Positions 80-18,371 are shown, counted from the stretch's first letter. The stretch is 27,053 bases of DNA from an archaeon (GCA_024274695.1 JAJSAI010000004.1:1-27053), one strand, 5' to 3'. Translations and numbers: made by a program. Notes: a model not told the origin generated them from the sequence alone.

Positions 80-125
80 TAAACCTTTTCCTGGTTTATT
101 CTGGTTGCATAAAAGGTTTAAATAA
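80..125 (+). promoter_or_regulatory. Operator palindrome plus TATA box of the surface-protein gene
   Basis: A perfect inverted repeat, TAAACC-N7-GGTTTA, spans 80-98 and is followed by TTCTGGTTGCA and a TATA element (TTTAAATA, 118-125). The TATA centre is about 25 bp from the ATG at 145, so the transcript is probably leaderless. The same palindrome in the same place relative to TATA occurs at 10165, 10862 and 13142, which is why I call it an operator rather than chance. An upstream site in archaea usually fits an activator; the protein that binds it is not shown by the sequence. Confidence 0.75.
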
Positions 126-4113: not shown

Positions 4114-4502
4114 AAAAGACCCAAAATCAAACAGAACTAAGAAGGATTATCAGACAAATAAAACTATTAGAAACCGATGAAAAAACAAGAACAGAAAAAT
4201 GCTTCGACGATCCTGCAATAATCGCACTTTCACTACGTGACGCGTACGCCTGCCTAGGAGAACTATACCTAAAAGAAGCAGACATCAAACAAGCAATAAA
4301 CGCGTTCAAGAAAGCAAAAGAAAACGACCTCAAATTCATAAAATCAGAATTCTCATACGACCCAGAATACTTAAAAAAACAAATAAAATCCACACAGGCC
4401 TACTGGAACGAAAAAATAAACAAACTCACACAAAAGGAAGTGCTCCATCCCCACCAACACAGAAGAAAAAACCACAGCAAACAACCAAAGAAAGCCTCTT
4501 AG
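4110..4502 (+). CDS. Small helical protein, candidate immunity protein
   Basis: 130 residues, starting inside the stop of the large upstream gene (ATGA overlap), so translation is coupled. Residues 1-105 are predicted helical and include a TPR-like stretch (YACLGELYLKEADIKQAINA). No signal peptide or membrane segment is visible, so it should be cytoplasmic. A small cytoplasmic protein directly after a toxin-tipped exoprotein is the usual position of an immunity gene; I infer that role from position only. The last ~24 residues are His/Arg/Lys-rich and look out of frame: the +2 frame continues with a Pro/Lys linker and a plausible C-terminus to 4576, so the true C-terminus may have been altered by a frameshift near 4436. 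Confidence 0.55.
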   Translation: MKKTQNQTELRRIIRQIKLLETDEKTRTEKCFDDPAIIALSLRDAYACLGELYLKEADIKQAINAFKKAKENDLKFIKSEFSYDPEYLKKQIKSTQAYWNEKINKLTQKEVLHPHQHRRKNHSKQPKKAS

Positions 4503-4576
4503 ACCCCGATAAAATAGCCATCACAACAGTATACAAAACAACCAAACTAGGCAAAAATTGGGTGAGAATATGGTAA
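4436..4576 (+). pseudogene. Out-of-frame C-terminal remnant after the candidate immunity gene
   Basis: Open frame overlapping the end of the preceding gene. It reads a Pro/Gln/Lys linker and then a segment with LDPDKIAITTVYKTTKLGK before a stop at 4574-4576. It has no start codon of its own and keeps the local A+C codon bias. It may be the lost C-terminus of the upstream gene after a one-base change, or a displaced toxin tip (the IITTVY-type strand resembles the end of RelE-like folds). Low certainty. Confidence 0.3.
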
Positions 4577-5016
4577 AAGTAATGATAATGAACGAACCAG
4601 AAAAAGAGAGATTCACACTAATACTATTAAACAACAAAAAATACAAAGAAACACCCATCAATGACATAGTCCTCATAAGCATAGACACAGACAACGAATT
4701 GAAAGACATAGAAATACCCTACAATCTCAACAATTGCATAGGTCAAAACATACCAAAACCACCCGAGAAAACAACAAAAGACCCAAAAATAAAACTCCCC
4801 TCAGAAACACAAGAAGGAGTACTCTACGACCCGCAGGAACACACGATATACATACAACTAACACCCCAAACAGAACAAAAAATACAAATAAACAAAATGA
4901 TAACTCTAGGCAAAAACCAAAAAAAAGAACTTTCAGCTATATGGATCAAACTCCCAAAAGAGGTAAACCAAAAAATCTACCACAACCAAAAATTCTTACA
5001 AAAAATAGAACTCTGA
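4570..5016 (+). CDS. Hypothetical protein, DUF2283-like features
   Basis: 148 residues from ATG 4570, chosen over an upstream TTG at 4558 because GGTGAG lies 4 nt before it. There is no signal peptide. The stretch INDIVLISIDTDNELKDIEI resembles the C-terminal half of the small DUF2283 family (acidic Asp-rich strand followed by IEI), and a second YDPQEHTIYIQL segment resembles the N-terminal YDPxxDxLYI strand of that family. The match is by eye and the order of the two halves looks permuted or duplicated. Position downstream of a toxin-like gene allows a second immunity protein, but function is unknown. Confidence 0.5.
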   Translation: MVKVMIMNEPEKERFTLILLNNKKYKETPINDIVLISIDTDNELKDIEIPYNLNNCIGQNIPKPPEKTTKDPKIKLPSETQEGVLYDPQEHTIYIQLTPQTEQKIQINKMITLGKNQKKELSAIWIKLPKEVNQKIYHNQKFLQKIEL

Positions 5017-5117
5017 CAAGAAATTCTTTAAAATCCAAAACAAACTACTACTATGATCCAACACAAGACATTCTAACAATTCCAGGACCAGCCAAACCCA
5101 CAAAATACGCATTCTGA
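5016..5117 (+). pseudogene. Fragment with a YDPxxDILTI strand
   Basis: A short open stretch in another frame directly after the preceding gene reads YYYDPTQDILTIPGPAK and stops at 5117. It has no start codon. The YDPxxDxLxI pattern repeats the DUF2283-like strand of its neighbour, so it is probably a broken copy or the neighbour's frameshifted end. Confidence 0.25.
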
Positions 5118-5238
5118 AAAAAGAAGAAAGAGAGGGAGAGAGCTCACCCGGCGCTCCCTGGAGAAAAGGAGAGCCTCTACGCTCGCAAGAAAAACCCCGA
5201 ATCCTGGGAATAAAAAGCTTTTGCAACAAGAACAAACC

Positions 5239-5260
5239 AAACAAGAGTTTAGTTTTATAT
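5239..5260 (+). promoter_or_regulatory. TATA box and short inverted repeat upstream of the broken TrmB-like gene
   Basis: TTTTATATA (5253-5260) lies about 27 bp before ATG 5284, giving a leaderless promoter. AAAC-N4-GTTT (5239-5250) sits directly upstream. It shares the half-site core of the regulon operator but has a 4-bp instead of a 7-bp spacer, so I treat it as a possible autoregulatory site only. Confidence 0.45.
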
Positions 5261-5283
5261 ACTCCGCAGTCCCTTTCTGGATT

Positions 5284-6137
5284 ATGGGCTCCCTGGAGAA
5301 CGCCCTGAAAAGGCAGGGCTGACCGACTACGAGGTCAGGATCCTGTCAAGCCTCTCAAAGTATCCTGAGGGCCTCACCGCGGAAGAACTGTCCAAGATTG
5401 CGAGAGTGCCCCACGCCAAGATCTATTCTGTGCTGAACGGGCTGGCCAGGCACTCTCTCCTGCACTCTGACGAGAGCAGGCCCAAAAAGTACTATCCCCT
5501 GCCGGCAGACGCTCTCGCCGACGCGCTCATAAGACCGAGGAAAACCGAGCTAGACCAGATCCGGGAATCAGTGCTCGCAGCACTCTCCCCAGAACCCGGA
5601 CTCAAGCCCAACGTAAAAGCCCTGCACAGCAAAGAAGAAGTCTGGAGGAACGTGTACGCGATCCTCTCCGGAGCGAAAAGGAACATAAGAGCAATAAGCA
5701 TTGCCAAAATGTACGAGAAGTCAATGCTCATGCCAGACCTGATGAAACTAGGCACCAGGATATGCAATAACAAGGGCATCACGTTCAGGATACTCTCGAC
5801 AGAGTCACTGATGAAGATCCCGTTGTCAAAACTACCGTACGAAGCAGTAGAATTCTTGGCCAACCCAAGAGAGTCCAGCAGAGTCCTACCGGATGACATG
5901 CTACGCACTGACGTGCTGATCGCTGACGGAGAGAAAGCGGAAATACCCGCGATAGACCCTGAAACCCATGAGTACGTCTCGGGAGTGCTCATAGAAGGCA
6001 GGGAACTCGTGGCCCCGTTCGTGGCATACTTCGAGGACTTGTGGGAAAAAGCAGTCCCGATAGAAGACCAGGTAAGGAAAATGGCCAAAGAAGAGTTGAA
6101 AAGGAGAGGCATAAAGACTACTTTTTCCCGGTACTAG
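5284..6137 (+). pseudogene. TrmB-like transcriptional regulator disrupted by a one-base frameshift
   Basis: The first codons from ATG 5284 read MGSLENALKRQG and then hit TGA. In the next frame the sequence resumes at once with LTDYEVRILSSLSKYPEG and runs through a complete winged helix (recognition region ARVPHAKIYSVLNGLARH) and a C-terminal TrmB effector-type domain to 6137. The two intact TrmB-like genes at 8465 and 9313 read through the same point (GLSSYEAR, GLNSYQAK), so one base appears to be missing near 5319. An internal GTG at 5406 would give 243 residues but starts inside the helix-turn-helix. The gene is therefore a fresh pseudogene or a base-calling error. Its 3' end overlaps the convergent neighbour by 20 bp. 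Confidence 0.75.
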
Positions 6138-7128
6138 CAAGATGATACTTAAGCAAGAGTTCTAATCCTTCCACATACTCTCTCAAGTCTACGGATTTTA
6201 CCTTTGGAGCTAGCTTGAGGATATTATTTCTATGCATTTCCCATTCTTCTAGAAGATTTTTCTCTACTTCATTCTTTTTGATCTTTTGTTTTATATCCTC
6301 AGCTATTTTAGGATCGGAAACGCTTTCTTCCAACTCAGAAGGCGTTATGATCCCCTCGCTTATGGCGTATCCAAAAACTCCTGAGGAAAAATCTGTTTCT
6401 TTCATTTCTCTTTCCCAGGTGCTCAACCAGTTCCCTATTCTTGCCATCTGCTGCCCTTTCCACACTGCTTCTCTTAACAAGGGAAGATCACTCATATCGA
6501 ACTCTGGAGAGAACATGAGGTCTATGTCTGCAAACAAGTAAAACATCATATTATGAGCCCCATAAATTTTGGTCTCGAGATAGTTAAGCATTTTAACATT
6601 TTTGTTGGCAGTATAGGCATAAAGGAACGTATTCCACGTCTGTTTCAAATCGAACATAAACATTTCTCTGAATTCTTCCCATCTAGGTGCTTTTGATAAA
6701 ATTTCTACTGTCTTCCTCCAAGACTCTATTTCTATCTTTACTCTGTGTTGATCTTGAGTCACAAGATCAGCTGGTATCTTAATTTTTTCAAAGGGGACTT
6801 TCAGCATTACATCAAGAAGCCTTTTATTTTTATGAACATCTGAAATGTCATCGGTTACAGTTACCGCAAAGATCAAAATACTTTTCGCCAATGCTGATGA
6901 GTAACGATTACTTTCTGGAACGCAAGAAAGCATAAACCCTGGTTTCCGAGCGTATGTGAGATCCCAACACCATTTCCATAAAAATAAGGGCCTCTCTCCA
7001 CCCATTTTCTCATAATCTTCGGCAAGTTCATGGATTTCAGGCGGAAGTTCTACCTCCATGACTTTCCGAATGAACTTATTGATTCCTTCATTTTTTATTT
7101 CAGACAAGATCTGCTCGTATTTCTTCAT
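6118..7128 (-). CDS. Class I isoprenoid/terpene synthase-like enzyme
   Basis: 336 residues, all helical in character, cytoplasmic. An aspartate-rich motif DDISD (93-97) and a second metal-binding motif NWLSTWERE (233-241, with N233, T237, R240 and E241 matching Nxxx(S/T)xx(K/R)E) are at the spacing expected for class I terpene synthases, which ionise prenyl diphosphates with three Mg ions. The conserved Trp/Phe-rich surround supports this. The lack of a second DDxxD argues against an ordinary prenyl-elongating synthase. Substrate and product are unknown. The gene overlaps the upstream FIST gene by 4 nt (ATGA), so the two form one operon. It is clearly more AT-rich than the genes on either side, suggesting transfer. 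Confidence 0.7.
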   Translation of the reverse strand: MKKYEQILSEIKNEGINKFIRKVMEVELPPEIHELAEDYEKMGGERPLFLWKWCWDLTYARKPGFMLSCVPESNRYSSALAKSILIFAVTVTDDISDVHKNKRLLDVMLKVPFEKIKIPADLVTQDQHRVKIEIESWRKTVEILSKAPRWEEFREMFMFDLKQTWNTFLYAYTANKNVKMLNYLETKIYGAHNMMFYLFADIDLMFSPEFDMSDLPLLREAVWKGQQMARIGNWLSTWEREMKETDFSSGVFGYAISEGIITPSELEESVSDPKIAEDIKQKIKKNEVEKNLLEEWEMHRNNILKLAPKVKSVDLREYVEGLELLLKYHLASTGKK

Positions 7129-8405
7129 TTTTCCACCGAAATCACGTTTGCAGAGTATACTCCCAATATCACTCTCTCTCCAGGCTTTTTAAAATAATTG
7201 TTCATAGGATATACCGCAAGATAAGGCAACCCATCAAAATATTTTTCATATTTTTCTCTTAGCATCCAAGATTTATGAGAAAGCATATTCAAACGTATTC
7301 CTGAAGAATAAACAAATGCGAAAGCTTTTTCATTTTCAAATTCTTTTAACAATTCATCTACAGATTCTAAGATTTCTTTTCCAGAAACAGACAGAAGTAC
7401 TCCTTTTCGTCCTAAAGCCCTGTATCCTAAAAGGAGCTCTTCTCCGTAAATAGCTCCAACTCCTGTTGTATAAGTAGGGTTATCTTCAAATCCTATAGGA
7501 AAATAATCTGAAGTCTTGTAATAAAAGGCGGGCTCTATTACTTTAAATCGTTCTTCTGAAATTTTTGATATCTCTTCCAAAAACTGCCTTTTTGCACTTT
7601 TTCCATTTATTGAGACAACTATTCTATCATCATACGCAGTTTCGGTTATTGTAAATTTTTTATCTGTAGGTTTAGCTCCAAGCGTCCAATTCATGTAAAC
7701 ATTCTTGTTTATTCCAAAAAGTAACAGTACCGCAGAATTTCTTAGGGGAGTTTCGTTCAAAAAGACATAATTATCGAGACAGCTATAATCATCAACAGAA
7801 GAACCCCCAAAGATGTAATAATTTTCAAAATATTTTGATAATTCAATAATAAACGTCTCTTCTTTTCCTACTCCCGTACCAAGCAGGGCAGATATTCGCA
7901 TGCCTATTCTTGACAAGATTTTTCCCAAGACTACCGAGTTCACATTATTCACAGTACCTACAAAAGGCACTCTTGGGATTATAGCTCCTGAAACGAATGC
8001 AAACAAAAGCTTATTTCTGTGAGTGATTTTATTCCCTTTTCTCTTTATCATCTTCGCGGCTTGTCTTGCGGCCTTCCGCGGGTTTCGTTTCACGTTCTTG
8101 CCTACTCCCACGGCCACCTGCATTTCCGGGTCCTGGACCGCCATGGCAGTGACTCCCCTGGTGAACACGCCGTCCTGGTTCATGAATCCTGCCACCGTGC
8201 CCCCAACCAGCGGCGCGTCAGGAAACTCTTTCTTGATCCCCTCCAGCATTGGCTTGAACTCTTCCTTGTGGTGGATCGTGGAGAACAATAGAATGAACTT
8301 GGGCTCGGGCGTCTCTCGCTTTATTTTTTCAGTAATCTCTCTCGCGATCTCTTCTCCCTTCCACTTCCTGCTCGTTGCCACGCAAACCTTCAGTTCTCCG
8401 CTCAT
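7125..8405 (-). CDS. FIST-domain sensory protein
   Basis: 426 residues without membrane segments. The N-terminal half has the FIST_N pattern: a strand ending in LLFSTIHHKEEF, then LVGGTVAGFM and a GGSSVDDY loop near residue 205. The C-terminal third contains the FIST_C-like LLGYRALGRKGVLLSVSG and AFVYSSGIRLNML segments. FIST domains bind small ligands and usually serve as signal inputs. Pairing with a terpene-synthase-like gene is not a standard arrangement. Base composition jumps inside the gene near 8030: residues 1-125 are GC-rich like the neighbours, the rest is AT-rich. The ATG lies about 30 bp from a TATA box shared with the divergent regulator. Confidence 0.8.
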   Translation of the reverse strand: MSGELKVCVATSRKWKGEEIAREITEKIKRETPEPKFILLFSTIHHKEEFKPMLEGIKKEFPDAPLVGGTVAGFMNQDGVFTRGVTAMAVQDPEMQVAVGVGKNVKRNPRKAARQAAKMIKRKGNKITHRNKLLFAFVSGAIIPRVPFVGTVNNVNSVVLGKILSRIGMRISALLGTGVGKEETFIIELSKYFENYYIFGGSSVDDYSCLDNYVFLNETPLRNSAVLLLFGINKNVYMNWTLGAKPTDKKFTITETAYDDRIVVSINGKSAKRQFLEEISKISEERFKVIEPAFYYKTSDYFPIGFEDNPTYTTGVGAIYGEELLLGYRALGRKGVLLSVSGKEILESVDELLKEFENEKAFAFVYSSGIRLNMLSHKSWMLREKYEKYFDGLPYLAVYPMNNYFKKPGERVILGVYSANVISVEK

Positions 8406-8440: not shown

Positions 8441-8464
8441 ATTTCAGCCCATTCTCTCTTTTTG

Positions 8465-9304
8465 ATGGACCTGCGGGAAGCTCTCGGAATGCTCGGTCTC
8501 TCCTCTTACGAGGCCAGGGCGTTCAGGTTCCTGTTGGATCATCCCAAGGCAAGTGCGGAAGAAGTGTCGCAGGGCTCTGGAATCCCGATGGCAAAAGTGT
8601 ACACTGTCCTTGGTAGCCTGGAAAAGAGAGGACTGGTCAGGACCTTCTTGTCCAGGCCCAAAAAGTATTCTCTCGTACCCCCAGAGGACCTAAGGAGAGC
8701 ATTCCTGGAGTCCAAGAAAAAGGAACTAGAAACGGCTGAAAAGGCTGTCGAAAAAATAGTCTCGGAAGCAGTCCTGCCAGAAGAAGAGGAAACCACAATC
8801 TTCACGGTCTACTCAGAGCAGGCAGTCTGGCGGGAGGTTGAAAGGATCAAGCTTTCCGCGAAAAGGTACGTGAAAAACCTCGGACCCGCGTTCCAATGGG
8901 AATACGCACTAAAACAAGAAAAACTGATACAAACCGTCCTGAAGATACTGAAAAGAGGTGTGAAAGTATACAACATCCTCCCGGACGACTATACCCCTAA
9001 TTTCAAGAGCCTCTCAACAAGCTTCATGAGGATGGCTGCCCACAAGAACGAGAACTTCAGAATACTAGACCACAACAAGATAGTGACTCCCATACAAGTG
9101 GCAGATGATTATTACATAGGAATCCCGTTCATTGACATGGAGCACAAAAAACTGATAGGAGGAATGGTCATCCACAGCCGGGAGCTCGGGGTGATAGCGT
9201 CCCACTATTTTGACATGCTCTGGGAACAAGCGGACCACGTTGAGGACAAGATACGCACGACAGCCAGGATAGAACTGGCAAAAAGAAAGATTACAAGGAG
9301 GTAA
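8465..9304 (+). CDS. TrmB-family transcriptional regulator
   Basis: 279 residues. An N-terminal winged helix (about 5-70) with GLSSYEARAF, the recognition region SGIPMAKVYTVLGSLEKRGLV and a wing ending RPKKYSLVPPEDL is typical of TrmB (PF01978). A coiled linker follows, then a C-terminal effector-type domain related to the TrmB phospholipase-D-like sensor domain. TrmB proteins bind sugars or other ligands and act as repressors or activators of archaeal promoters. ATG 8465 is preferred to TTG 8462 and suits a leaderless start. The paralogous gene at 9313 follows after 8 nt, so the two are co-transcribed. They are the nearest candidates for binding the four shared palindromes. Confidence 0.85.
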   Translation: MDLREALGMLGLSSYEARAFRFLLDHPKASAEEVSQGSGIPMAKVYTVLGSLEKRGLVRTFLSRPKKYSLVPPEDLRRAFLESKKKELETAEKAVEKIVSEAVLPEEEETTIFTVYSEQAVWREVERIKLSAKRYVKNLGPAFQWEYALKQEKLIQTVLKILKRGVKVYNILPDDYTPNFKSLSTSFMRMAAHKNENFRILDHNKIVTPIQVADDYYIGIPFIDMEHKKLIGGMVIHSRELGVIASHYFDMLWEQADHVEDKIRTTARIELAKRKITRR

Positions 9305-9312
9305 AAAAAGGA

Positions 9313-10167
9313 ATGCACGGGCTCGAGGACGAACTCAAAAAGTTCGGGCTGAACTCTTACCAGGCCAAGGCAGTCGTTTTCCTGCTGGAGAACCCTGATT
9401 CCACCGCGGAAGAGGTGTCAAAGTATTCTGGAATCCCCATGGCGAAAGTGTACCAGGTGCTCGACTCCCTCGTGAAAATGGGCCTGGCCTCGTATTCTCT
9501 GGGAAGACCAAAAAGATACTCTGCCCTGCCCGCGGACCAGATCGTGTCAAGGCTCGTTGGCAGGATAGAAGACAGGCTCGCGTCGCTGAAGGATTCTGCC
9601 AGAACTCTGCTGGAACAACTCTCGGAAGCGAGCGTGGAAGGAAGGCTCCAGCCAGTGAAGATAGTGGACTCAGAAGAAGGCGCGTGGGCGGAGTACGGCA
9701 AGATGGTGCGCAGGACGAAAGAATACATTTACAACACCTCAGATTCTCTCGGGTGGGACAGCGGTTACTCCCACGGGAACCTGATGCTTCCAGCGTACTA
9801 TGACCTCATCCAAAAAAGGAAAGTTAGGATAAGGTGCCTCTACCCTGATAATTACAATCTCCTGCACACGGTCACCCTGGTCCCTAAGGGAATTCGGAGA
9901 AAGCTTTTCAAAATATACTCTTATCCTGGGCACGAGGCGCGCAAGATAAAAAAGGATATAACCCTGTTCTTCTCAGTGTCTGACGACGAGAGAGTATTCC
10001 TTGTCCTCAGGGACGGGAACGAGATCGTGGGAGGCTTGTTCATAAACGATCCCTTGACCGCGAGGACGTTCAGGGAAGTGTACGACAAACTGTGGGAAAA
10101 AGGGGTTCCTGTAACCAGCCGGATGGTTGAGGCTGCAATAAGGTATGCGGGAAAACTGCTCAAGTAA
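9313..10167 (+). CDS. TrmB-family transcriptional regulator (second copy)
   Basis: 284 residues, clearly paralogous to the preceding gene: GLNSYQAKAV, SGIPMAKVYQVLDSLVKMGLA and RPKRYSALPADQI match it position for position in the winged helix. The C-terminal domain is less alike, which suggests a different ligand. An upstream GGAGG (9297-9301) and AAGGA support the ATG at 9313. Its TAA stop (10165-10167) forms the first three bases of the operator of the next gene, so the regulator gene and a target site are physically joined. Confidence 0.85.
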   Translation: MHGLEDELKKFGLNSYQAKAVVFLLENPDSTAEEVSKYSGIPMAKVYQVLDSLVKMGLASYSLGRPKRYSALPADQIVSRLVGRIEDRLASLKDSARTLLEQLSEASVEGRLQPVKIVDSEEGAWAEYGKMVRRTKEYIYNTSDSLGWDSGYSHGNLMLPAYYDLIQKRKVRIRCLYPDNYNLLHTVTLVPKGIRRKLFKIYSYPGHEARKIKKDITLFFSVSDDERVFLVLRDGNEIVGGLFINDPLTARTFREVYDKLWEKGVPVTSRMVEAAIRYAGKLLK

Positions 10168-10243: not shown

Positions 10244-10864
10244 GTGAAAAGACTCTACTCTGAGGGGGTCAAGTACTACGAGGACAACCCGCCCAATCCC
10301 ACGAGAGTGTACGAGAACTGGCTGGAGCTCTTGAAGAAGACGGATTACGCGAGCGTGCTTGACATAGGGTGCGGGCTGGGAGACTTTACCCAGATGCTGC
10401 GGGACGAAGGATACGAAGTGACCGGGATAGACAGTTCAGAGCAAATGATCCGGGCCGCAAGAAAAAGGCATCCTGAGTGCAGGTTCGTGCACGCGAACGC
10501 GGTGGACTACAAGCCAGCGCAAGAGCTGGGAATAATGGCGTTCACGGTCCTGCCACACCTCTCCCCAAAGGAACTCGGGGCCCTGTTCAAGAGGATGGGG
10601 CAAGGTGACTATACTAAGGCCTTGTGGTTCGACTACCCCAAGTACGTGAAACAACTGCTGGACGGGGTCACGAGCATGCCGGGAATAGACTTTGTCTTCC
10701 ACCACACGGGCAGGATAGAATACCATGTGGGAGAGTACGAGGAAGAGCTGTGGCTGGTCACACCCTCGCTCGTGGAAGCCCTGACAGGAGCCTGCGGGCT
10801 TGACTCCAGGACCCTAAAAGAAGGCAGGATAAGGTACTATCAAGAGTGCACGCTCGGGAACTAA
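10244..10864 (+). CDS. SAM-dependent class I methyltransferase
   Basis: 206 residues. Motif I VLDIGCGLGDF near residue 40, an acidic end of strand 2 (VTGIDSSEQM) and FVHANAVDY identify a class I Rossmann methyltransferase. The second half is lineage-specific, with several aromatic residues (GRIEYHVGEYEEELW), and gives no clear substrate. It starts at GTG 10244 behind GAGGGGG. It sits under the same operator as the two peptide cassettes and immediately before the first of them, so a role as tailoring enzyme for the modified peptides is a reasonable inference. A small-molecule methyltransferase is the alternative. Confidence 0.8.
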   Translation: MKRLYSEGVKYYEDNPPNPTRVYENWLELLKKTDYASVLDIGCGLGDFTQMLRDEGYEVTGIDSSEQMIRAARKRHPECRFVHANAVDYKPAQELGIMAFTVLPHLSPKELGALFKRMGQGDYTKALWFDYPKYVKQLLDGVTSMPGIDFVFHHTGRIEYHVGEYEEELWLVTPSLVEALTGACGLDSRTLKEGRIRYYQECTLGN

Positions 10865-10904
10865 ACCCTTTACAGGTTTAATCGTGTTGCAGATTCTTTA
10901 TAAA
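10862..10904 (+). promoter_or_regulatory. Operator palindrome plus TATA box of peptide cassette A
   Basis: TAAACC-N7-GGTTTA at 10862-10880, including the TAA stop of the methyltransferase, then GTTGCAGATTC and TTTATAAA (10897-10904). The stretch from the palindrome to TATA is nearly the same as at cassette B (GTTGCAGA(T/A)TCTTT). Confidence 0.75.
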
Positions 10905-10921
10905 CCTGTTCTGCTGGTTTA
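10901..10921 (+). promoter_or_regulatory. Second inverted repeat overlapping the TATA box of cassette A
   Basis: TAAACC-N9-GGTTTA uses the same half sites as the upstream operator but with a 9-bp spacer, and covers the end of the TATA box and the expected start region. A site here would block rather than assist transcription. Cassette B has only a weak counterpart at the same place. Confidence 0.45.
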
Positions 10922-10940
10922 GTTCCAGGAGGTGACGAGA

Positions 10941-11039
10941 ATGGTGTGGAGCTTGGTTGCTGAAAACGCTGGAGGAGACGAGTACAGAGAGTGGGGGACC
11001 TGGATAGACACGTACGGTGAGAGAGAGGAGGACGAATGA
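10941..11039 (+). CDS. Short precursor-like peptide A
   Basis: 32 residues, ATG 10941 behind GGAGGTG (10928-10934). The N-terminal part is MVWSLVAENAGG; the C-terminal part is rich in aromatic and acidic residues (DEYREWGTWIDTYGERE). It has no signal peptide and no Cys. The last 22 residues align without gaps to the end of peptide B at 13221: Gly, Glu, Tyr, Trp, Tyr, Arg and Glu are identical and several acidic positions are conserved in type. A peptide gene 15 nt before a radical SAM/SPASM maturase is the standard arrangement of a ribosomally made, modified peptide, so I take it as the substrate. Trp-x-Asp and Tyr-x-Glu triplets could be sites of aromatic side-chain crosslinks, but no modification can be read from sequence. 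Confidence 0.75.
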   Translation: MVWSLVAENAGGDEYREWGTWIDTYGEREEDE

Positions 11040-11054
11040 AAAAAGTGAGCAAGA

Positions 11055-12875
11055 ATGCAAGGGAGAAAGCTTCCTGACGGCAGGTTCGAAGGAGAAGGAC
11101 AAGCTGAGGACACACTGTTGCTGGAGAAAGTGTGCAATGCCTTCGGCCTACCGGCAGGAGAAGAAAGGGAGGTGAGGGCAGGGCTCAGGCAAAAGCTTTC
11201 CCAGGACCCAAAAGAATTCCTGCAGGGGATCAAGAGACTCAAGCAAGAAAATCCTCCCAGGCTCGCGGGAGTCCTACTGGAAATGGTGGGGTCAGCGGTC
11301 TCAGGCAGGCTCTGGAAAGCCCTAAGAAAAGAGTGCGAGCACGCGGGGATCGACTTCTTCCAGGCAGTCTCGCGTGTGAAAAGCCCTCTACTGCACGGGA
11401 GGACAGTAGAACAAGAGTTCGAAGGTTATCCTGAAAGAGTAAGACTATTGCTAACTGTAATGCAGGAGCTCGCGAACTTTGAGGAGAAAACCCTGTGGTA
11501 CTACTGGAAAGAAAAAAGGGAAGAACAGTACATCATTCCTCCCCTGGAAAGAGTCTCGCAGGATCCACCAATATTCCTGAATCCTGAGACAGGCGGCTGG
11601 GCAGTGGTAACAGACCCGAGCCTGCTGGACCCTGCAAGGTACGCTGGCAGGGGGCAGATGCTCCAGGCGGAAGTGCAGGGCACCGCGTACATCAGTGAAG
11701 GAGTCCTGACAGAACAGGAAAAGAAAGATCTTGACGCTCTGGTCAAGGCAAGGGTAGCATACCACACGGGATCCAACACCCCCTCTCTCATGGAAGTAAG
11801 GTTCAGGCCAACGTTCCTGTCAATAATGCTAACAGAAAAATGCAACTTCGCGTGCGAGTACTGCTACCAGGACCATGACCCAGGAAAAAAGGAGGCTAAC
11901 GCGAGAGAACTTGACGCGCAGGCGAGCAGGATCCTGTCCTGGTTCAGGACCATAAAGAGCATAGAATTCTTCGGAGGAGAACCCCTTCTAGAACTAGGAA
12001 AGCTTAGGATGCTCCTGCTTAACGAGCTCGTCAGGGCAAGAGACCTGTTCATGGAAACCAACGGAAACCTGCTCACCAGGGAGGTCGCCAGGCTCCTCAA
12101 GGTGCACGGGGTGAGCGTGGGAGTGAGCCTTGACGGCCCGCCGGAAAAGAACAGACACAGGAAAACAAGGGCAGGAGAACAAGCGTACGAGACCGCGGTC
12201 AGGGCAATGGAAAACCTTAAGGCAGAGGGACATTCTTATGGAATGATCTCCGTCCTGACCCCCTCTAACGCGGGAATGGGAGAAGACTTCCTTGAGTGGG
12301 CTGAAGAACTTGGAGTCCACTCCTTTCACGTGAACTACTGCAACCATCCTGAACTCGCTCCCAGCGCAGGGCAGGCGTTCGAGTTCTTCAAGAAAACCTT
12401 TGAAGCGTACGTCGAACAAGAGCACTACAAGAGAATAGGGTACTCTAACTTCAAGTGGGCGATCGAAGCCCTTTCAACACCCCAACACCAGAGGAGCCTA
12501 ATGTGCGGCAGGAGCCCGTGCGGGGCGGGCATCGCGCACCTGACCATAACCCCTGACGCTAGGATCGCCCCGTGCCCAAGGCTCTCGGAAAACAGGGTCA
12601 GCCCAGAGAACACCTCCGACCTTTTCAGAAGGTTCTGGAGCGTGTACTCTCACAACATACTGACCACGAGCCCCTGCTCAGAATGCGCGTACCGGAACCT
12701 CTGCACAGGAGCGTGTCCTGAAACAAGCTCAGGAAAAGTGTTCCGGGAATACTGCAGGTTCCAGAGAATGCTCTGGCCCTGGCTCATGCAGAAAGTCTAC
12801 GAGAACCCGAAATACCTGGAGGCGGTAAAAAGATGGAAGAGGCTGAAGGTCTCACCAATTACCCCGGGACCGTGA
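11055..12875 (+). CDS. Radical SAM/SPASM peptide maturase A
   Basis: 606 residues. A long N-terminal region (1-255) of helical character precedes the radical SAM barrel. The cluster motif is C263-x3-C267-x2-C270 in TEKCNFACEYCYQD, followed by IEFFGGEPLLE and VSVGVSLDGPP, the usual SAM-binding and barrel motifs. A full SPASM domain begins near residue 484 (CGRSPCGAG), with ITPDARIAPCPRL and a SPCSECAYRNLCTGACP...YC cysteine set, enough for two auxiliary iron-sulfur clusters. Enzymes of this build form C-C, C-S or C-O bonds on peptide side chains by hydrogen abstraction. The N-terminal part may recognise the leader of peptide A. It ends within the next gene, which starts 43 nt before its stop. 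Confidence 0.9.
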   Translation: MQGRKLPDGRFEGEGQAEDTLLLEKVCNAFGLPAGEEREVRAGLRQKLSQDPKEFLQGIKRLKQENPPRLAGVLLEMVGSAVSGRLWKALRKECEHAGIDFFQAVSRVKSPLLHGRTVEQEFEGYPERVRLLLTVMQELANFEEKTLWYYWKEKREEQYIIPPLERVSQDPPIFLNPETGGWAVVTDPSLLDPARYAGRGQMLQAEVQGTAYISEGVLTEQEKKDLDALVKARVAYHTGSNTPSLMEVRFRPTFLSIMLTEKCNFACEYCYQDHDPGKKEANARELDAQASRILSWFRTIKSIEFFGGEPLLELGKLRMLLLNELVRARDLFMETNGNLLTREVARLLKVHGVSVGVSLDGPPEKNRHRKTRAGEQAYETAVRAMENLKAEGHSYGMISVLTPSNAGMGEDFLEWAEELGVHSFHVNYCNHPELAPSAGQAFEFFKKTFEAYVEQEHYKRIGYSNFKWAIEALSTPQHQRSLMCGRSPCGAGIAHLTITPDARIAPCPRLSENRVSPENTSDLFRRFWSVYSHNILTTSPCSECAYRNLCTGACPETSSGKVFREYCRFQRMLWPWLMQKVYENPKYLEAVKRWKRLKVSPITPGP

Positions 12876-13144
12876 AGGGAACACTAATAACGAACGTTGA
12901 AAACGCTACAAGGTATCCTGACCCAGTACTGTACTGTGACAATTTCCTGATAGACCACGTGGTCTACTTGGACAGGCTCAAAGCAGTCCTGATACGGAGG
13001 AAGAACTTCTTGTGCCACGCGGCAATAGTCTGCAGGGAAAAGAAGATCCCGTCCGCTGTGGGAGTTGAGATCAGGGAACCGAAAGAAGGGGCTAGGGTCA
13101 CCGTGCACGCGGACACTGTCAAAACAAGAGTGGTGCTAGAGTAA
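12833..13144 (+). CDS. Stand-alone PEP-utilising-enzyme mobile domain A
   Basis: 103 residues, start ATG 12833 with strong GGAGGCGG (12818-12825), nested in the end of the radical SAM gene. The core FLCHAAIVCREKKIPSAVG matches the swivelling phosphohistidine domain (PF00391) of PEP synthase and pyruvate phosphate dikinase, in which a His between Thr/Ser and Ala carries phosphate. Here the His is H62, but the usual TxGG loop before it is replaced by RRKN, and the residue before His is Cys. No ATP-grasp or PEP-binding domain is attached, and no partner gene is seen nearby. Coupled expression with the maturase implies a shared job, possibly phosphate transfer to, or carriage of, the peptide. Whether this copy can be phosphorylated is uncertain. 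Confidence 0.8.
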   Translation: MEEAEGLTNYPGTVKGTLITNVENATRYPDPVLYCDNFLIDHVVYLDRLKAVLIRRKNFLCHAAIVCREKKIPSAVGVEIREPKEGARVTVHADTVKTRVVLE

Positions 13145-13185
13145 ACTTTTCCCCAGTTTATTCTGGTTGCAGAATCTTTTTATTA
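13142..13185 (+). promoter_or_regulatory. Operator palindrome plus TATA box of peptide cassette B
   Basis: TAAACT-N7-AGTTTA at 13142-13160. The C-to-T change in the left half is matched by G-to-A in the right half, so the symmetry is kept by compensating changes. It includes the TAA stop of the upstream gene. TTCTGGTTGCAGAATC and TTTTTATTA (13177-13185) follow, with the TATA-like element 17 bp away as at cassette A. Confidence 0.75.
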
Positions 13186-13220
13186 CTCTTCCGCAGGGTT
13201 ATTTTCTGGAGGTGGTTTTG

Positions 13221-13376
13221 ATGGCGGAGTACATGACATCCTCGTGCACGAGCGGAGGGGATGACTGGCCCAGGTACTCCAAGTCAGGAGGGTACTCAAG
13301 GTCAGGAGGCTGGGGAGAGTACGAGGACTGGAGAGACCACTACAACAAGTACTATGACAGGGACGAGTACGATTAA
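13221..13376 (+). CDS. Short precursor-like peptide B
   Basis: 51 residues. ATG 13221 is chosen over an in-frame upstream codon because GGAGGTGG (13208-13215) lies just before it and the promoter is only about 40 bp upstream. It opens MAEYMTSSCTSGGDDW, then has a tandem six-residue repeat YSKSGG-YSRSGG (an 18-nt DNA repeat), then GWGEYEDWRDHYNKYYDR and an acidic end. Fifteen or so residues are aromatic and there is one Cys. The last 22 residues align without gaps to peptide A. The radical SAM gene follows at once. Taken as the substrate of maturase B; W-R-D, Y-E-D and H-Y-N triplets could be crosslink sites, which is inference. Confidence 0.75.
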   Translation: MAEYMTSSCTSGGDDWPRYSKSGGYSRSGGWGEYEDWRDHYNKYYDRDEYD

Positions 13377-13410
13377 TTGGGGTGTGAGGTTGGAAGGCTG
13401 GTCGCAGGTA

Positions 13411-15393
13411 ATGAAGTTCGGGAGGATAAAAAGCATTTCAAGCGGGCTTGAGGACATGAAGCCCGCTGAAAGCCTTTTTTCTGTAATGCTCGGGAAAAGG
13501 CTTGAGCACCTGAAAAGGGAGTACGGGATAGAGGCAAGGGTGAACGAGAAGGGCGCGTGGGTCACGCGCGAGAGCAGGATCACAGCATACAAGCGGTTCC
13601 TGGCAGACCCGGAATACCGGAAGAAAATCCTGAGGCTGCGGATGAGGGACTACGAGCAGGAAGAACCTGAAGACCCGTGGGAAAAGAAGGAGTACTGGGA
13701 GAGGATGGCTGAAGAGCACGCTGAAGAAATGCTGCTCGTGACAATCTTGTACAGCATGCTGTCAAGAAAGGCTGAAGACCTCATCCTCTCAGGAGCCCCT
13801 CCTGAACTGCTCGCGTCACCTGACCCAGACTGGACTGAAAGAATAGGACCAACACACCCTTTCGTAGCATTTATTGAAGGAGGAGAGTGTGACTGGAGGA
13901 AGACAAGGGCAAAGAACAAGGACGCGTACAAGAGGGCCAGAGAACTCAGAAAGAGCGTGGACGAGAACGTCTTCAAGATAATGAGGCTCGCCAGCGCCAT
14001 GGCAAACCAGTACTCAAAAAAGGACTATGACGAGATCGTGTTCAGCAAGTACTCTTTCGCAAGATCGCAGAACTTTTTGGCTGACGACATAGAGTTCACG
14101 GGAAACAAGGCCGTGAACCGGGTGAACGGAAGGATAGCCAGGATCACTGAAGAAGAAAAAACGCTTCTGGAAAAGGCCTTGAAAGGGCCTTTGCTGTTCT
14201 CGGACATCAGCAGAAGAGAGTACTCCCTGCTCAAGAGCCTGCACGAGGCAGGGCTCGTGAGACTGAACGGAAGGTACCACGCCAGCGCGAGGCCCAGGGT
14301 CCCGGGAATCGAAGAGGACAGCGCCATAGTGGTGGTGAGGGTCACTGACGCGTGCAACCTCGCGTGCGAGTACTGTTACGCTAACGCGGGAAAAAGAACT
14401 GGCACCGTGTCCGAGGAGACAGTAATTAACGCGGTGAAGGTGTTCTCCCAGTACTATCCTCGGCTGACCGTGGAATTTCACGGAGGAGAACCCTTCCTCT
14501 ATTTTGACTCCTGGATAGGGACCGTGAACAGGATAAGGCGCTTGAACTGGCCTGTTGACTTCGCGGTGCAGACTAATGCCACGCTAATAGACCCGGACAA
14601 GGCAAGAAAGCTTTCCCTTAACAGGGTGAGCGTGGGAGTGAGCCTTGACGGGCCGAAGGAAATGCATGACAAGGCCAGGCATGATGCCGCTGGCAAGGGA
14701 TCCTGGGACGATGTGATGAGAGGAATAAGCGTGCTAAGGAAGTGGAACCTGTTCGCTGGAGTCATAACGACCGTGGGAGAGCACAACGCCAGACCGAGGG
14801 AACTCCTTGACTTTTATCTTGACAACGATATCACGAGGGTCAAGCTCAATCCCCTGTGGGAGTGGGGCAGGGGGAAGGGCAAGGGCATGAAAAGAGAAAA
14901 GTTCCACTGGTTCTACAAGGCATTCATAGAAGCCACTGTCAACGCCAGGCTGCAGGGAGAAAAACTGGTCAAGGAATCCAACTTTAAGGACATAATCGTC
15001 ACCCTCTCCTCCGGCAGGACAAGGTACATGTGCTTCCAGAACCCCTGCGGCGCTGGGAGAAGAATGTTCGGAGTAGACCACGACGGGACAGTGTACCCGT
15101 GCGAAGAGTTCACGGGAAACAAGGAGTTCGCGGGGCCCAACATCAACAAGGTCAAGAACGTGCTCCAGATCTTCTCCCACCCGGTAGTCTCTGGAGTGAG
15201 GGGGAGGATGCTGGAAGAGGACAGGCTGCCCTGCGGCCCGGGCTACTGCAAGTCAGCGTTCCTGCAGACAGGACGCCCCAGAGGATCCTGGGACGGCCTG
15301 CTTGAGTGGGCGTTCGACCTGCTCAAGGAAGAGCCCTGGCTGGCCAGGGAGTACGGGGTGAACATAGAATGGAAGAAGAGTTCGAGGGAGTGA
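13411..15393 (+). CDS. Radical SAM/SPASM-like peptide maturase B
   Basis: 660 residues from ATG 13411; GTG 13384 (669 residues, 7 nt after the peptide stop) is also possible. A charged helical N-terminus (1-230) is followed by a winged-helix-like stretch (LLFSDISRREYSLLKSLHEAGLVRL), possibly the peptide-recognition element. The cluster motif is C315-x3-C319-x2-C322 in DACNLACEYCYAN, with VEFHGGEPFL and VSVGVSLDGPK matching maturase A. The auxiliary region keeps CFQNPCGAG (541) and DHDGTVYPCEE (564) but ends with only CGPGYC (608-613), lacking the usual CxxCxxxxxC set. It therefore probably holds fewer auxiliary clusters than maturase A. The next gene begins 25 nt before its stop. Confidence 0.88.
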   Translation: MKFGRIKSISSGLEDMKPAESLFSVMLGKRLEHLKREYGIEARVNEKGAWVTRESRITAYKRFLADPEYRKKILRLRMRDYEQEEPEDPWEKKEYWERMAEEHAEEMLLVTILYSMLSRKAEDLILSGAPPELLASPDPDWTERIGPTHPFVAFIEGGECDWRKTRAKNKDAYKRARELRKSVDENVFKIMRLASAMANQYSKKDYDEIVFSKYSFARSQNFLADDIEFTGNKAVNRVNGRIARITEEEKTLLEKALKGPLLFSDISRREYSLLKSLHEAGLVRLNGRYHASARPRVPGIEEDSAIVVVRVTDACNLACEYCYANAGKRTGTVSEETVINAVKVFSQYYPRLTVEFHGGEPFLYFDSWIGTVNRIRRLNWPVDFAVQTNATLIDPDKARKLSLNRVSVGVSLDGPKEMHDKARHDAAGKGSWDDVMRGISVLRKWNLFAGVITTVGEHNARPRELLDFYLDNDITRVKLNPLWEWGRGKGKGMKREKFHWFYKAFIEATVNARLQGEKLVKESNFKDIIVTLSSGRTRYMCFQNPCGAGRRMFGVDHDGTVYPCEEFTGNKEFAGPNINKVKNVLQIFSHPVVSGVRGRMLEEDRLPCGPGYCKSAFLQTGRPRGSWDGLLEWAFDLLKEEPWLAREYGVNIEWKKSSRE

Positions 15394-15698
15394 CAGCGTC
15401 AAGAGGAAAAGCGGTCGGGCGCGCGTGCCTTGACCTCAAGGACTTCAGGGACGGTGACATAATAATCGCCGAGACGACTTACGCGCCACTGGTGCCCCTC
15501 ATGAAAAGAGCGGCCGCGATCGTCACCAGCACAGGAGGAGTGCTCTCGCACGCGGCAGTAGTATCAAGAGAACTGGGGATACCGTGCGTGGTCAGGGCAG
15601 CAGGAGTCCTGAGCGTGCCTCACGGCGCGCTCGTGGAAGTGGACGCCACCGCCCCGAAGGGCAGGGTAAGGGTCGTCGGAAAAAATGATGTTTCCTGA
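15369..15698 (+). CDS. Stand-alone PEP-utilising-enzyme mobile domain B
   Basis: 109 residues from ATG 15369, which has GGGGTGA about 9 nt before it and overlaps the end of the maturase gene. It is a textbook mobile domain: VTSTGGVLSHAAVVSRELGIPCVV with the phospho-accepting H61 in a TxGGxxSHAA context, followed by a Val/Asp-rich beta end (GALVEVDATAPKGRVRVV). In PEP synthase and similar enzymes this domain swings between two active sites carrying phosphate on His. Here it stands alone. Its equal placement in both cassettes, with the His at nearly the same residue number, is strong evidence that it belongs to the pathway. Unlike copy A, all consensus residues are intact. Confidence 0.85.
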   Translation: MEEEFEGVTASRGKAVGRACLDLKDFRDGDIIIAETTYAPLVPLMKRAAAIVTSTGGVLSHAAVVSRELGIPCVVRAAGVLSVPHGALVEVDATAPKGRVRVVGKNDVS

Positions 15699-16282: not shown

Positions 16283-17065
16283 TCAGAACAGTTTTGACTG
16301 GGTAAGATTTTCTTCCGGCTTGCTTACCACGATCCCCCTGCTCGTTATGTCCATGCTCACGAAGTCGTCGTAGTGCTTGGTGTTCCTCATCTTCTCTATC
16401 CTTAGCGTTCTCTTGCTCCCCGCCATGCCGAGGTAGTGGAGTGTTATCACCGCGTCGGACAAGAATTCTGAGACCCCGTCGCTGGAGAACATGGGAGAGT
16501 CTCTGGGGGTCTGGGAGGTGACTATGGATGTCATGTTGAACTCTTTCAGCATGAGGATGAGCTTGTGCACCTGCATCCTGATCATTATGTTCTCTGACAA
16601 GGGGCCTCCCATGACCTTGTCAAGCTCGTCCAGGAGCCCGTACTCTGCCAGCTCGTTCACTGATATTGGAAAGTCTGCTAGGGGAGAAAGAGAGTCTAGC
16701 ACGAACCTTTCCGGCTTGAAGGACTCTATCTCCTTTCTTATCATGGAATGGTACGTTTCTCCTTTCGGGAGCCTCCTCTGGGTTATGTCAAAGAATATGA
16801 ACCTCGCGAGCCCGTTCTTTTCCAGGGACTCGAAGTCCATTCCCATCAGGCTCGCCTGCTCGTACAGGTCTCTCACGGGCTGCTCGAAGCTTATGTACAT
16901 TACCCTCTGCCCGTACTCTTTGGCCCCGTGGTACAAGAACTGCAGGCAAAAGATTGACTTTCCTGTTCCAGGGGATCCTGAGACAAGGCAGGTGCTGCCC
17001 TTGGGAAGCCCGCCTTGTATTAGCTCGTCAAGCCCAGGAACCCCTACAGGCTCTCTCTCAATCAT
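16283..17065 (-). CDS. KaiC-like RecA-superfamily ATPase
   Basis: 260 residues from ATG 17063-17065. A TATA element at about 17092-17098 supports this start over longer frames. Single KaiC domain: GVPGLDELIQGGLPKG, Walker A GSPGTGKS (30-37), the catalytic acidic strand MYISFEQP, Walker B RFVLDSLS, and a C-terminal DITSRGIVVSKPEE tail that matches the second KaiC-like protein at 17610-18371. Archaeal single-domain KaiC proteins are proposed to act in signal transduction; the function here is not known. It has its own promoter and sits between Roadblock and the zinc ribbon genes. Confidence 0.85.
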   Translation of the reverse strand: MIEREPVGVPGLDELIQGGLPKGSTCLVSGSPGTGKSIFCLQFLYHGAKEYGQRVMYISFEQPVRDLYEQASLMGMDFESLEKNGLARFIFFDITQRRLPKGETYHSMIRKEIESFKPERFVLDSLSPLADFPISVNELAEYGLLDELDKVMGGPLSENIMIRMQVHKLILMLKEFNMTSIVTSQTPRDSPMFSSDGVSEFLSDAVITLHYLGMAGSKRTLRIEKMRNTKHYDDFVSMDITSRGIVVSKPEENLTQSKLF

Positions 17066-17124
17066 ACTGGGTAAGAAAAAGTATTCTTTGGTATAAAAAG
17101 TTTTGGACTCCCCCGGGGCCCTGT

Positions 17125-17349
17125 TCACTCTACCGCGAGATGGAACTCTTCTCCCACTTCCCTGGGCGTTTTCTTCGAGTCCGCGGCCACCCTCTTCAGC
17201 CCTGTTATGAGCTCGTCCCTGGTTATCCACTTGCTCCCGCACTCAGGGCACTCCAGTCCAACGAACTCGTACTTCCTGTCCCCGTACCACACGTCAACGT
17301 ACGCGGGGTTCATGTGAACTGTCTCACAGTAAGGGCAAACGTGCTTCAT
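17125..17349 (-). CDS. Small zinc-ribbon protein
   Basis: 74 residues with VCPYCETVHMNP and GLECPECGSKW: four Cys in two CxxC knuckles form a zinc ribbon. It is paralogous to the gene directly upstream on the same strand (shared CPYCExVxMxPxY...KYE...CPECG). After the ribbon comes a helical tail. Small ribbons of this kind may bind nucleic acid or act as partner proteins. It lies 7 nt after the upstream copy, so they are co-transcribed. Confidence 0.75.
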   Translation of the reverse strand: MKHVCPYCETVHMNPAYVDVWYGDRKYEFVGLECPECGSKWITRDELITGLKRVAADSKKTPREVGEEFHLAVE

Positions 17350-17609: not shown

Positions 17610-18371
17610 CTAGTAAATTCTTTCTCCAGGCTCTTCTGGCTTGCGCACCACAATGCCCTTCTGGGTTATGTGCATCGGGAGAATCTCTTCAGCGTGTCTG
17701 GTGCCCCTCATCTTCCGTATGTACAGGGTCCTCGTGTCAGAAGTTCCGAAGCCAAGGTAGTGGAGCACGATCACCCCGTCCGCCACGTACTCTTCCACAC
17801 CGTACTTTGAGAACTGCATTGGTCCGGCGGTGAAGCCCTGTTCAGGGACTTCTGACGTTATTACCGCGGTCACGTCAGTCCTCATGAGCATGTAGTTAAC
17901 CTTTAGTATTGTCCTCCTTATCTCGTGAATGCTGTCAATGTGGGCTGACAGGCCGGCCACCGAGTCCAGGACAAGCCTTTTCGCGCCTATCTCGTCAACC
18001 ACCTGCATTATCCTGAGCAGGAGCCTGTCAACGTCCAGGCTGGTGTCAGGGATCCTGTACTTCTCCTCTGAAGGAAACCCTGCCCTCGCGCTGCTCGCGT
18101 CCAGTATCGCGATCATGTTCTTTTTCTCAAGCTTCGGAATGTCCCAGTTGAACCGGGTCATGTCCTGTCTTATGAGCTCGGGCCTCTCGTCAAGGGTCAC
18201 GAAAACCCCTGGCTCGCCGTACTCAACAGCCCCCCTGTACAAGTACTGCATGCCGAAAATTGTCTTGCCCGCCCCGGTTCCTCCGGAGACGAGTATCGTC
18301 CTGCCTTTAGGGAAGCCTCCTTCTATCAGTTCGTCAAGCCCGTAAACGCCTGTCTGAACCCTTTCTATCAT
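17610..18371 (-). CDS. KaiC-like RecA-superfamily ATPase (second copy)
   Basis: 253 residues, Walker A GGTGAGKT (30-37), acidic strand VFVTLDERP, Walker B RLVLDSVA and tail HITQKGIVVRKPEE. It is similar along its whole length to the ATPase at 16283, including the MIER start, so the two came from a duplication. A TATA element (TTTATAAC on the minus strand, about 18394-18401) gives a leaderless start. The gene is divergent from the lipoprotein gene at 18462. Likely a signalling ATPase; no substrate can be read. Confidence 0.85.
   Translation of the reverse strand: MIERVQTGVYGLDELIEGGFPKGRTILVSGGTGAGKTIFGMQYLYRGAVEYGEPGVFVTLDERPELIRQDMTRFNWDIPKLEKKNMIAILDASSARAGFPSEEKYRIPDTSLDVDRLLLRIMQVVDEIGAKRLVLDSVAGLSAHIDSIHEIRRTILKVNYMLMRTDVTAVITSEVPEQGFTAGPMQFSKYGVEEYVADGVIVLHYLGFGTSDTRTLYIRKMRGTRHAEEILPMHITQKGIVVRKPEEPGERIY

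Follow-up and report, generated by a model that had tools for sequence, protein, structure and literature searches.

Two archaeal radical SAM cassettes with a stand-alone PF00391 swivel domain: candidate triceptide-like peptides whose maturation may use a phosphohistidine carrier

Why should a phosphate-carrying domain that is normally part of central-metabolism enzymes (PF00391) be encoded on its own, in a gene that overlaps the gene of a radical SAM enzyme lying behind that of a short peptide? The question is raised by two neighboring cassettes (10941-13144 and 13221-15698) in the window, the whole stretch of archaeal DNA that was analysed, which is one 27-kb contig (JAJSAI010000004.1, 27,053 nucleotides (nt)) of an assembly of 825 kb that is 91% complete. 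In each cassette a short-peptide gene is followed by genes for a radical SAM maturase and, overlapping the latter, a PF00391 domain, referred to below as the swivel. The best reading of our results, to which we give a probability of roughly 0.42, is that the cassettes make triceptide-like peptides and that a phosphohistidine carrier takes part in their maturation as well. To our knowledge, the ribosomally synthesized and post-translationally modified peptides (RiPPs) of small-genome archaea are hardly known. If it is true that the swivel phosphorylates the peptide, peptide tailoring would be tied to the phosphoenolpyruvate (PEP)/ATP state of the cell, and the cassettes would represent a new enzyme logic, in which a carrier domain acts in trans and radical cross-linking is joined with phosphoryl chemistry.

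The coordinates and gene order that a prior interpretation of this DNA (the sequence-only reading) had assigned to both cassettes hold when checked against the sequence and by Pfam searches. In cassette A, which like cassette B lies on the plus strand, the gene for precursor peptide A (10941-11039; 32 amino acids (aa), MVWSLVAENAGGDEYREWGTWIDTYGEREEDE; conserved in relatives) is followed by that for the radical SAM/SPASM maturase A (11055-12875; 606 aa), which has an extra helical N-terminal region and is identified by Pfam, by its relatives and by its predicted fold. The gene for swivel domain A (12833-13144; 103 aa) overlaps the maturase gene by 43 nt, and its product has kept the active-site His and lost the GG loop. 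Cassette B encodes precursor peptide B (13221-13376; 51 aa, MAEYMTSSCTSGGDDWPRYSKSGGYSRSGGWGEYEDWRDHYNKYYDRDEYD, containing W-R-D-H-Y), a radical SAM maturase B with a degenerate SPASM region (13411-15393; identified by Pfam Radical_SAM, a BLASTP match to maturase A and its Cys count) and swivel domain B (15369-15698; 109 aa), whose gene overlaps the maturase gene by 25 nt and whose active-site loop, TSTGGVLSHAA with His61, is intact. The start of maturase B is uncertain (13384, 13390 or 13411) and is probably 13411. A strong GGAGGTG ribosome-binding site lies 5' of both peptide genes. A methyltransferase gene located upstream (10244-10864) has been dropped from the cassette because it has no counterpart beside cassette A in G010 or G015, the two other genomes in which this cassette is found.

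The recurrence check that the sequence-only reading had proposed for the trio of peptide, maturase and swivel has been run; the trio recurs, and its precursors are conserved across orders. In a sample of 19 genomes of the phylum, we have counted 16 genes that encode a swivel alone or in a fusion (five in the window's own genome, four in G005, three in G004 and one each in G003, G007, G010 and G015), about 11 of which are neighbors of a radical SAM gene or part of a fusion with one. A swivel neighbor was found at 0 of 80 other radical SAM/SPASM loci and at 0 of 25 archaeal loci outside the phylum, which were examined as controls; a contig scan with the A-family alignment, swamped by generic radical SAM patterns and yielding no true relatives, served as a control. 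A naive binomial estimate for 10 of 16 adjacent genes gives P = 4e-11, the true significance being weaker since there are orthologues among the 16. Cassette A is present as a whole, peptide included, in G010 and G015, both from a different order, with maturases that are about 35% identical along their length and swivel genes that overlap the maturase genes by about 45 nt, and no full-length relatives of the A-family maturase were found outside the phylum in a search of 394 archaeal genomes. The swivel, radical SAM and SPASM regions are fused in a single 652-aa protein in G004, and in the window's own genome contig C29 contains a third cassette of radical SAM, peptide and swivel, and contig C19 a swivel that has no radical SAM gene with it. 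The repeated recruitment of swivels to radical SAM loci is suggested by a tree of the short swivel domains, which spreads the radical-SAM-linked swivels over at least three groups. With the trio recurring, its precursors conserved across orders and the swivel repeatedly associated with radical SAM enzymes, in one case by fusion, the existence of a RiPP pathway that includes a swivel partner is well supported, and A and B are very probably RiPP-type cassettes.

The C29 cassette (L017, 9144-10298) contains an in-frame TAA that removes the last ~50 residues of the radical SAM protein, the rest of the SPASM region being open in frame, and the relative of this gene in G005 is without that stop. A decayed fourth cassette of contig C26 (L018, 4957-6430), which is AT-rich and located at a contig end, has an intact swivel, a radical SAM gene broken by a stop and frameshifts, and a peptide with six Y-x-D repeats.

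What the radical SAM enzymes may do is indicated by their precursors, which in both cassettes are short and rich in Trp, Tyr and Asp. In three genomes the A-type peptides have in common a short leader, M-x-V-W, and a core, T-W-[IT]-D-T-Y, the leader and the core W-x-D-T-Y of peptide A being conserved in G010 and G015 and more loosely in G005. The pattern aromatic-x-D-x-Y is present in 7 of 7 precursors of this maturase kind (viz. WIDTY, WRDHY, FEDSY, WIDTY, WTDTY, WTDTY, YIDEY, and others), for which the product of the shuffle probabilities is 10^-6.9, a post hoc value from precursors that are not independent. W or Y followed by D at i,i+2 occurs 21 times against 9.2 expected, a number reached by 0 of 3000 shuffles, and with one peptide per family the count is 13 against 5.0 (P = 3e-4); the same shuffle test gave no enrichment at spacings of 1, 3, 4 or 5. 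This spacing is that of triceptides, for which Trp-Asp links (OscB) and Tyr-Asp links (YxdB) are documented (PMC11002830), and it is likely that in these peptides also an aromatic side chain is cross-linked to Asp at i,i+2, which would yield three-residue cyclophanes. Peptide A has no Cys (peptide B has one), and Cys-Asp thioethers of the PapB kind are therefore excluded for A. The sequence-only reading had spoken of an undescribed archaeal RiPP class. Of this claim the RiPP pathway with a swivel partner stands, and in the open-licence literature searched no description was found of RiPPs matured with a swivel, dikinase or PEP-synthase partner; the novelty of the class is not secured, since the precursor motifs resemble the W/Y-x-D of triceptides and the radical chemistry may be one already known.

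Both maturases exceed the curated cut-offs of Pfam Radical_SAM (2e-20 for A and 5e-17 for B), and they are related in their catalytic parts (26% identity, BLASTP E 5e-28) and differ in their N-terminal regions. The radical SAM cysteines of maturase A are C263/C267/C270, and the CxxxCxxC motif of maturase B is located at 319/323/326, numbered from a start at 13399. Two SPASM enzymes had been claimed; A has the pattern of seven SPASM-type cysteines (489, 507, 541, 544, 550, 554, and 567) though no Pfam SPASM score, and B is degenerate, with only Cys 545, 550, 568, 612, and 617 after the radical SAM core and a Pfam SPASM score below the cut-off. The best NCBIfam matches of both enzymes are of the PapB/CbpB type (E 6e-29 to 1e-43), with scores of 101-149 bits against cut-offs of 340-375, and both fall outside the curated cyclophane-forming families OscB/GrrM, YhhB, FxsB, and AmcB (54-109 bits against cut-offs of 310-445). 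As these scores are far below every curated family shown, neither maturase belongs to a named group. The predicted structures of the two enzymes resemble anSME (Z 31.9 for A and 32.8 for B), CteB, and ChlB, all of which are peptide- or protein-modifying radical SAM enzymes, and PqqE and SkfB are also among their structural relatives. We have considered the swivel as a substitute for a missing recognition element, and this idea is weakened by model A, which covers the N-terminus of CteB (residue 162 of the model aligns with residue 2 of CteB, near the start of the recognition domain, with a high root-mean-square deviation of 5.8), and by the weak PqqD-like N-terminus of the C29-type maturase; the models were also compared with a view to an RRE-like winged helix before the radical SAM core, for which model B is too poor in its N-terminal part, with confidence scores (pLDDT) mostly below 60 before residue 300.

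The swivels themselves score above the PF00391 cut-off of 23.1 bits (A, 7e-9 and 35.6 bits; B, 1e-20 and 73.1 bits) and are related to each other along their length (E 8e-7). The phosphate-carrying His is present in 16 of 16 swivels and the following R-E is invariant in a 13-row alignment, the sequences having otherwise diverged to ~22-38%. The glycine pair before the His is retained in all swivels except the A family, so that the T/S-x-x-G-G-x-x-x-H loop is present in swivel B and absent from swivel A. Their solved relatives are the swivels of PEP synthase, rifampin phosphotransferase, pyruvate phosphate dikinase (PPDK), enzyme I, and pyruvate kinase, the best matches being 8a8e and 5fbs. A precedent is provided by HpeHI, a split swivel/ATP-grasp dikinase that phosphorylates phenols and whose activity is abolished by H581Q (PMC12167813).

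In the mechanism that we propose, the maturase would join the side chain of W or Y with the beta carbon of the Asp at i+2 (W/Y-x-D), and the swivel would dock on the maturase-peptide complex as a phosphohistidine carrier. The single PEP synthase is the only protein with a PF01326 ATP-grasp in the 91%-complete assembly of the window's genome, and its ATP-grasp domain would therefore have to charge the swivel in trans, if charging takes place at all. The charged swivel would hand its phosphate to the peptide, giving phosphorylated Tyr, Ser or Thr, or a carboxylate activated for a second ring closure. We put forward the phosphocarrier role as a proposal that can be tested and place it somewhat short of even odds, and the mechanism taken as a whole, from docking through charging in trans to phosphate transfer, is tentative. 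The best indirect support for phosphotransfer comes from outside the phylum. Two genomes of different archaeal families, G220 and G433, possess an operon (L276, 1445-5749; L302, 1168-5399) that encodes a radical SAM/SPASM enzyme, a conserved 25-aa peptide (MEKVLWQFSCLACGGISGSLDEEEN and MEKVLWQFSCVACGGISGNLEEECD), a 300-aa protein, a C39-like/swivel fusion, an ATP-grasp protein (a stand-alone PPDK_N) and an HD protein. Radical SAM peptide chemistry is thus found independently a second time in company with a swivel, here with its own kinase.

Several observations weigh against a triceptide-like peptide matured with a phosphohistidine carrier. No peptide product has been seen; the motif tests were set up after the peptides had been inspected, and orthologues among them are not independent. 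The precursor type of C29 and G005-C15 is Cys-rich (C..KPC.GGCSA), and that of G005-C21 has W-x-x-D repeats instead, so the cassettes may not all use the same radical chemistry. The swivels of C19, G003, and G007 have partners other than radical SAM enzymes, swivel A and its two orthologues are without the GG loop that is held to be key, and no stand-alone ATP-grasp was found in the window's genome, G003, G004 or G005. The phosphate transfer put forward in the sequence-only reading is plausible in respect of the invariant His and qualified by the lack of a dedicated ATP-grasp kinase and the degraded glycine loop of swivel A.

The last two facts also suit a RiPP cassette whose swivel carries no phosphate and serves the maturase as a structural or docking subunit, or acts as a PEP/pyruvate sensor, as PF00391 may do in some pyruvate kinases. 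The pyruvate kinase swivel (2e28, 3t05) is among the solved relatives and the tight translational overlap suits a stoichiometric subunit; however, a His kept in all 16 swivels despite divergence elsewhere, and the pairing of a swivel with its own ATP-grasp in the G220/G433 operon, argue against it, and we view this explanation as a serious possibility, at rather less than even odds. Less likely than not, though worth stating, is the boldest reading, a novel peptide pathway of small archaea in which the phosphohistidine swivel, charged in trans by central metabolism, passes phosphate to a precursor that the radical SAM maturase holds, and in which the swivel and not the maturase is the shared core, recruited by several unrelated maturases and by one non-radical-SAM cassette. 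Still less probable is that the products are redox cofactors or metal-binding peptides (as PQQ and mycofactocin) and not exported natural products: the small genome with several parallel cassettes, the short precursors rich in Tyr and Asp, the structural kinship of the maturases with PqqE and SkfB and the fact that no transporter or leader peptidase was recognised beside the window cassettes are in keeping with it, but the cassettes have no oxidase or nicotinoprotein partner, and several divergent precursors per genome suit diversified products better than one cofactor. That the radical SAM enzyme modifies the swivel itself or another protein, the short open reading frame (ORF) being only an upstream regulatory one, is very improbable, for while the nearest predicted fold is the protein-modifying anSME and every cassette has an adjacent swivel gene, the short ORF has a leader and core conserved across orders and strong ribosome-binding sites, and the G004 fusion suits a working subunit better than a substrate.

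Triceptide-like maturation with a phosphohistidine carrier can be set beside several known systems. The triceptide pathways (XncB, OscB, YxdB; PMC11002830) likewise place a radical SAM/SPASM maturase by a short precursor and share the WxD/YxD motifs, which in the precursors here are enriched at i/i+2 only, but a swivel partner is absent from these pathways as described there, and maturases A and B have extra N-terminal regions and score far below the named cyclophane families. PapB/CbpB maturases are the best NCBIfam matches of A and B, whereas the ranthipeptide precursors of PapB are Cys-rich and the maturases here score below the cut-offs. Two-component dikinases (HpeHI, CreHI, PpsAB; PMC12167813) share with cassette B a separate swivel with TxxGGxxxH and have known phenolic acceptors; in contrast to them, the swivel here has no substrate-binding domain and its genome no paired ATP-grasp gene. 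The swivels of PEP synthase, rifampin phosphotransferase, and PPDK have the same PF00391 fold and active-site His, but here the domain is a separate protein of 103-109 aa whose gene overlaps that of a radical SAM enzyme. The G220/G433 operon is similar in combining radical SAM, a conserved short peptide and a swivel, and differs in its own ATP-grasp, its C39-like peptidase and its other precursor.

The two cassettes also share an upstream element. Only three sites in the 825-kb genome match TTTAWTCNNGTTGCARAW exactly, 5' of cassettes A, B, and C29, and the promoter that the sequence-only reading had called the same for A and B is real. The operator-like copy of cassette A (10877-10894, plus strand) is the exact match TTTAATCGTGTTGCAGAT, followed by a TATA-like TTTATAAA, and that of cassette B (13157-13174, plus strand) is TTTATTCTGGTTGCAGAA. 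Because the pattern was built from its three exact sites, the independent signal consists of three sites with one mismatch: 95-112 (plus strand), 5' of a predicted secreted protein of 1322 aa (145-4113); 5219-5236 (minus strand), near a TrmB-like gene (5406-6137); and a copy on contig C19, 5' of a TrmB gene beside the C19 swivel. The candidate regulator is a TrmB-family protein (9313-10167, plus strand; Pfam TrmB 2e-18) whose gene adjoins the cassettes. The simplest reading is that a small TrmB-controlled regulon lies behind the shared element, which would probably be bound by a TrmB-family protein and would switch the cassettes together. Three TrmB-like genes (5406-6137, 8462-9304, and 9313-10167) are located within 5 kb upstream of the cassettes.

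Swivel genes were also observed in other settings. Two orthologous loci without radical SAM (L019, ~5571-6919; L054, ~3970-5290) encode a swivel and a homologous protein of 314-318 aa with no clear Pfam match, and in both a strong ribosome-binding site precedes a 9-codon ORF (MEMIPDFWP and MKGIGDFGF), so that each is possibly a micro-precursor cassette of this same kind. At L274 (2180-14808) at least seven swivel proteins (~340-530 aa) are encoded in an array together with a single stand-alone ATP-grasp gene, and G222, G449, and G321 show an expansion, with 10-14 matches each. At L059 (334-3346) a stand-alone swivel gene overlaps that of an unknown 284-aa protein, with a stand-alone ATP-grasp gene ~1.7 kb downstream.

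Elsewhere in the window, inspection by eye indicates a terpene- or prenyl-synthase-like protein with a DDISD motif (6118-7128), whose gene is overlapped by one (7125-8405) for a FIST-like sensory protein. A RadA-like gene in the window and a TFB-like gene on contig C29 were read from the sequence as archaeal markers. Two KaiC-like ATPase genes (16283-17242 and 17610-18371), also recognised by eye, lie on the minus strand with two small Cys-rich proteins encoded between them.

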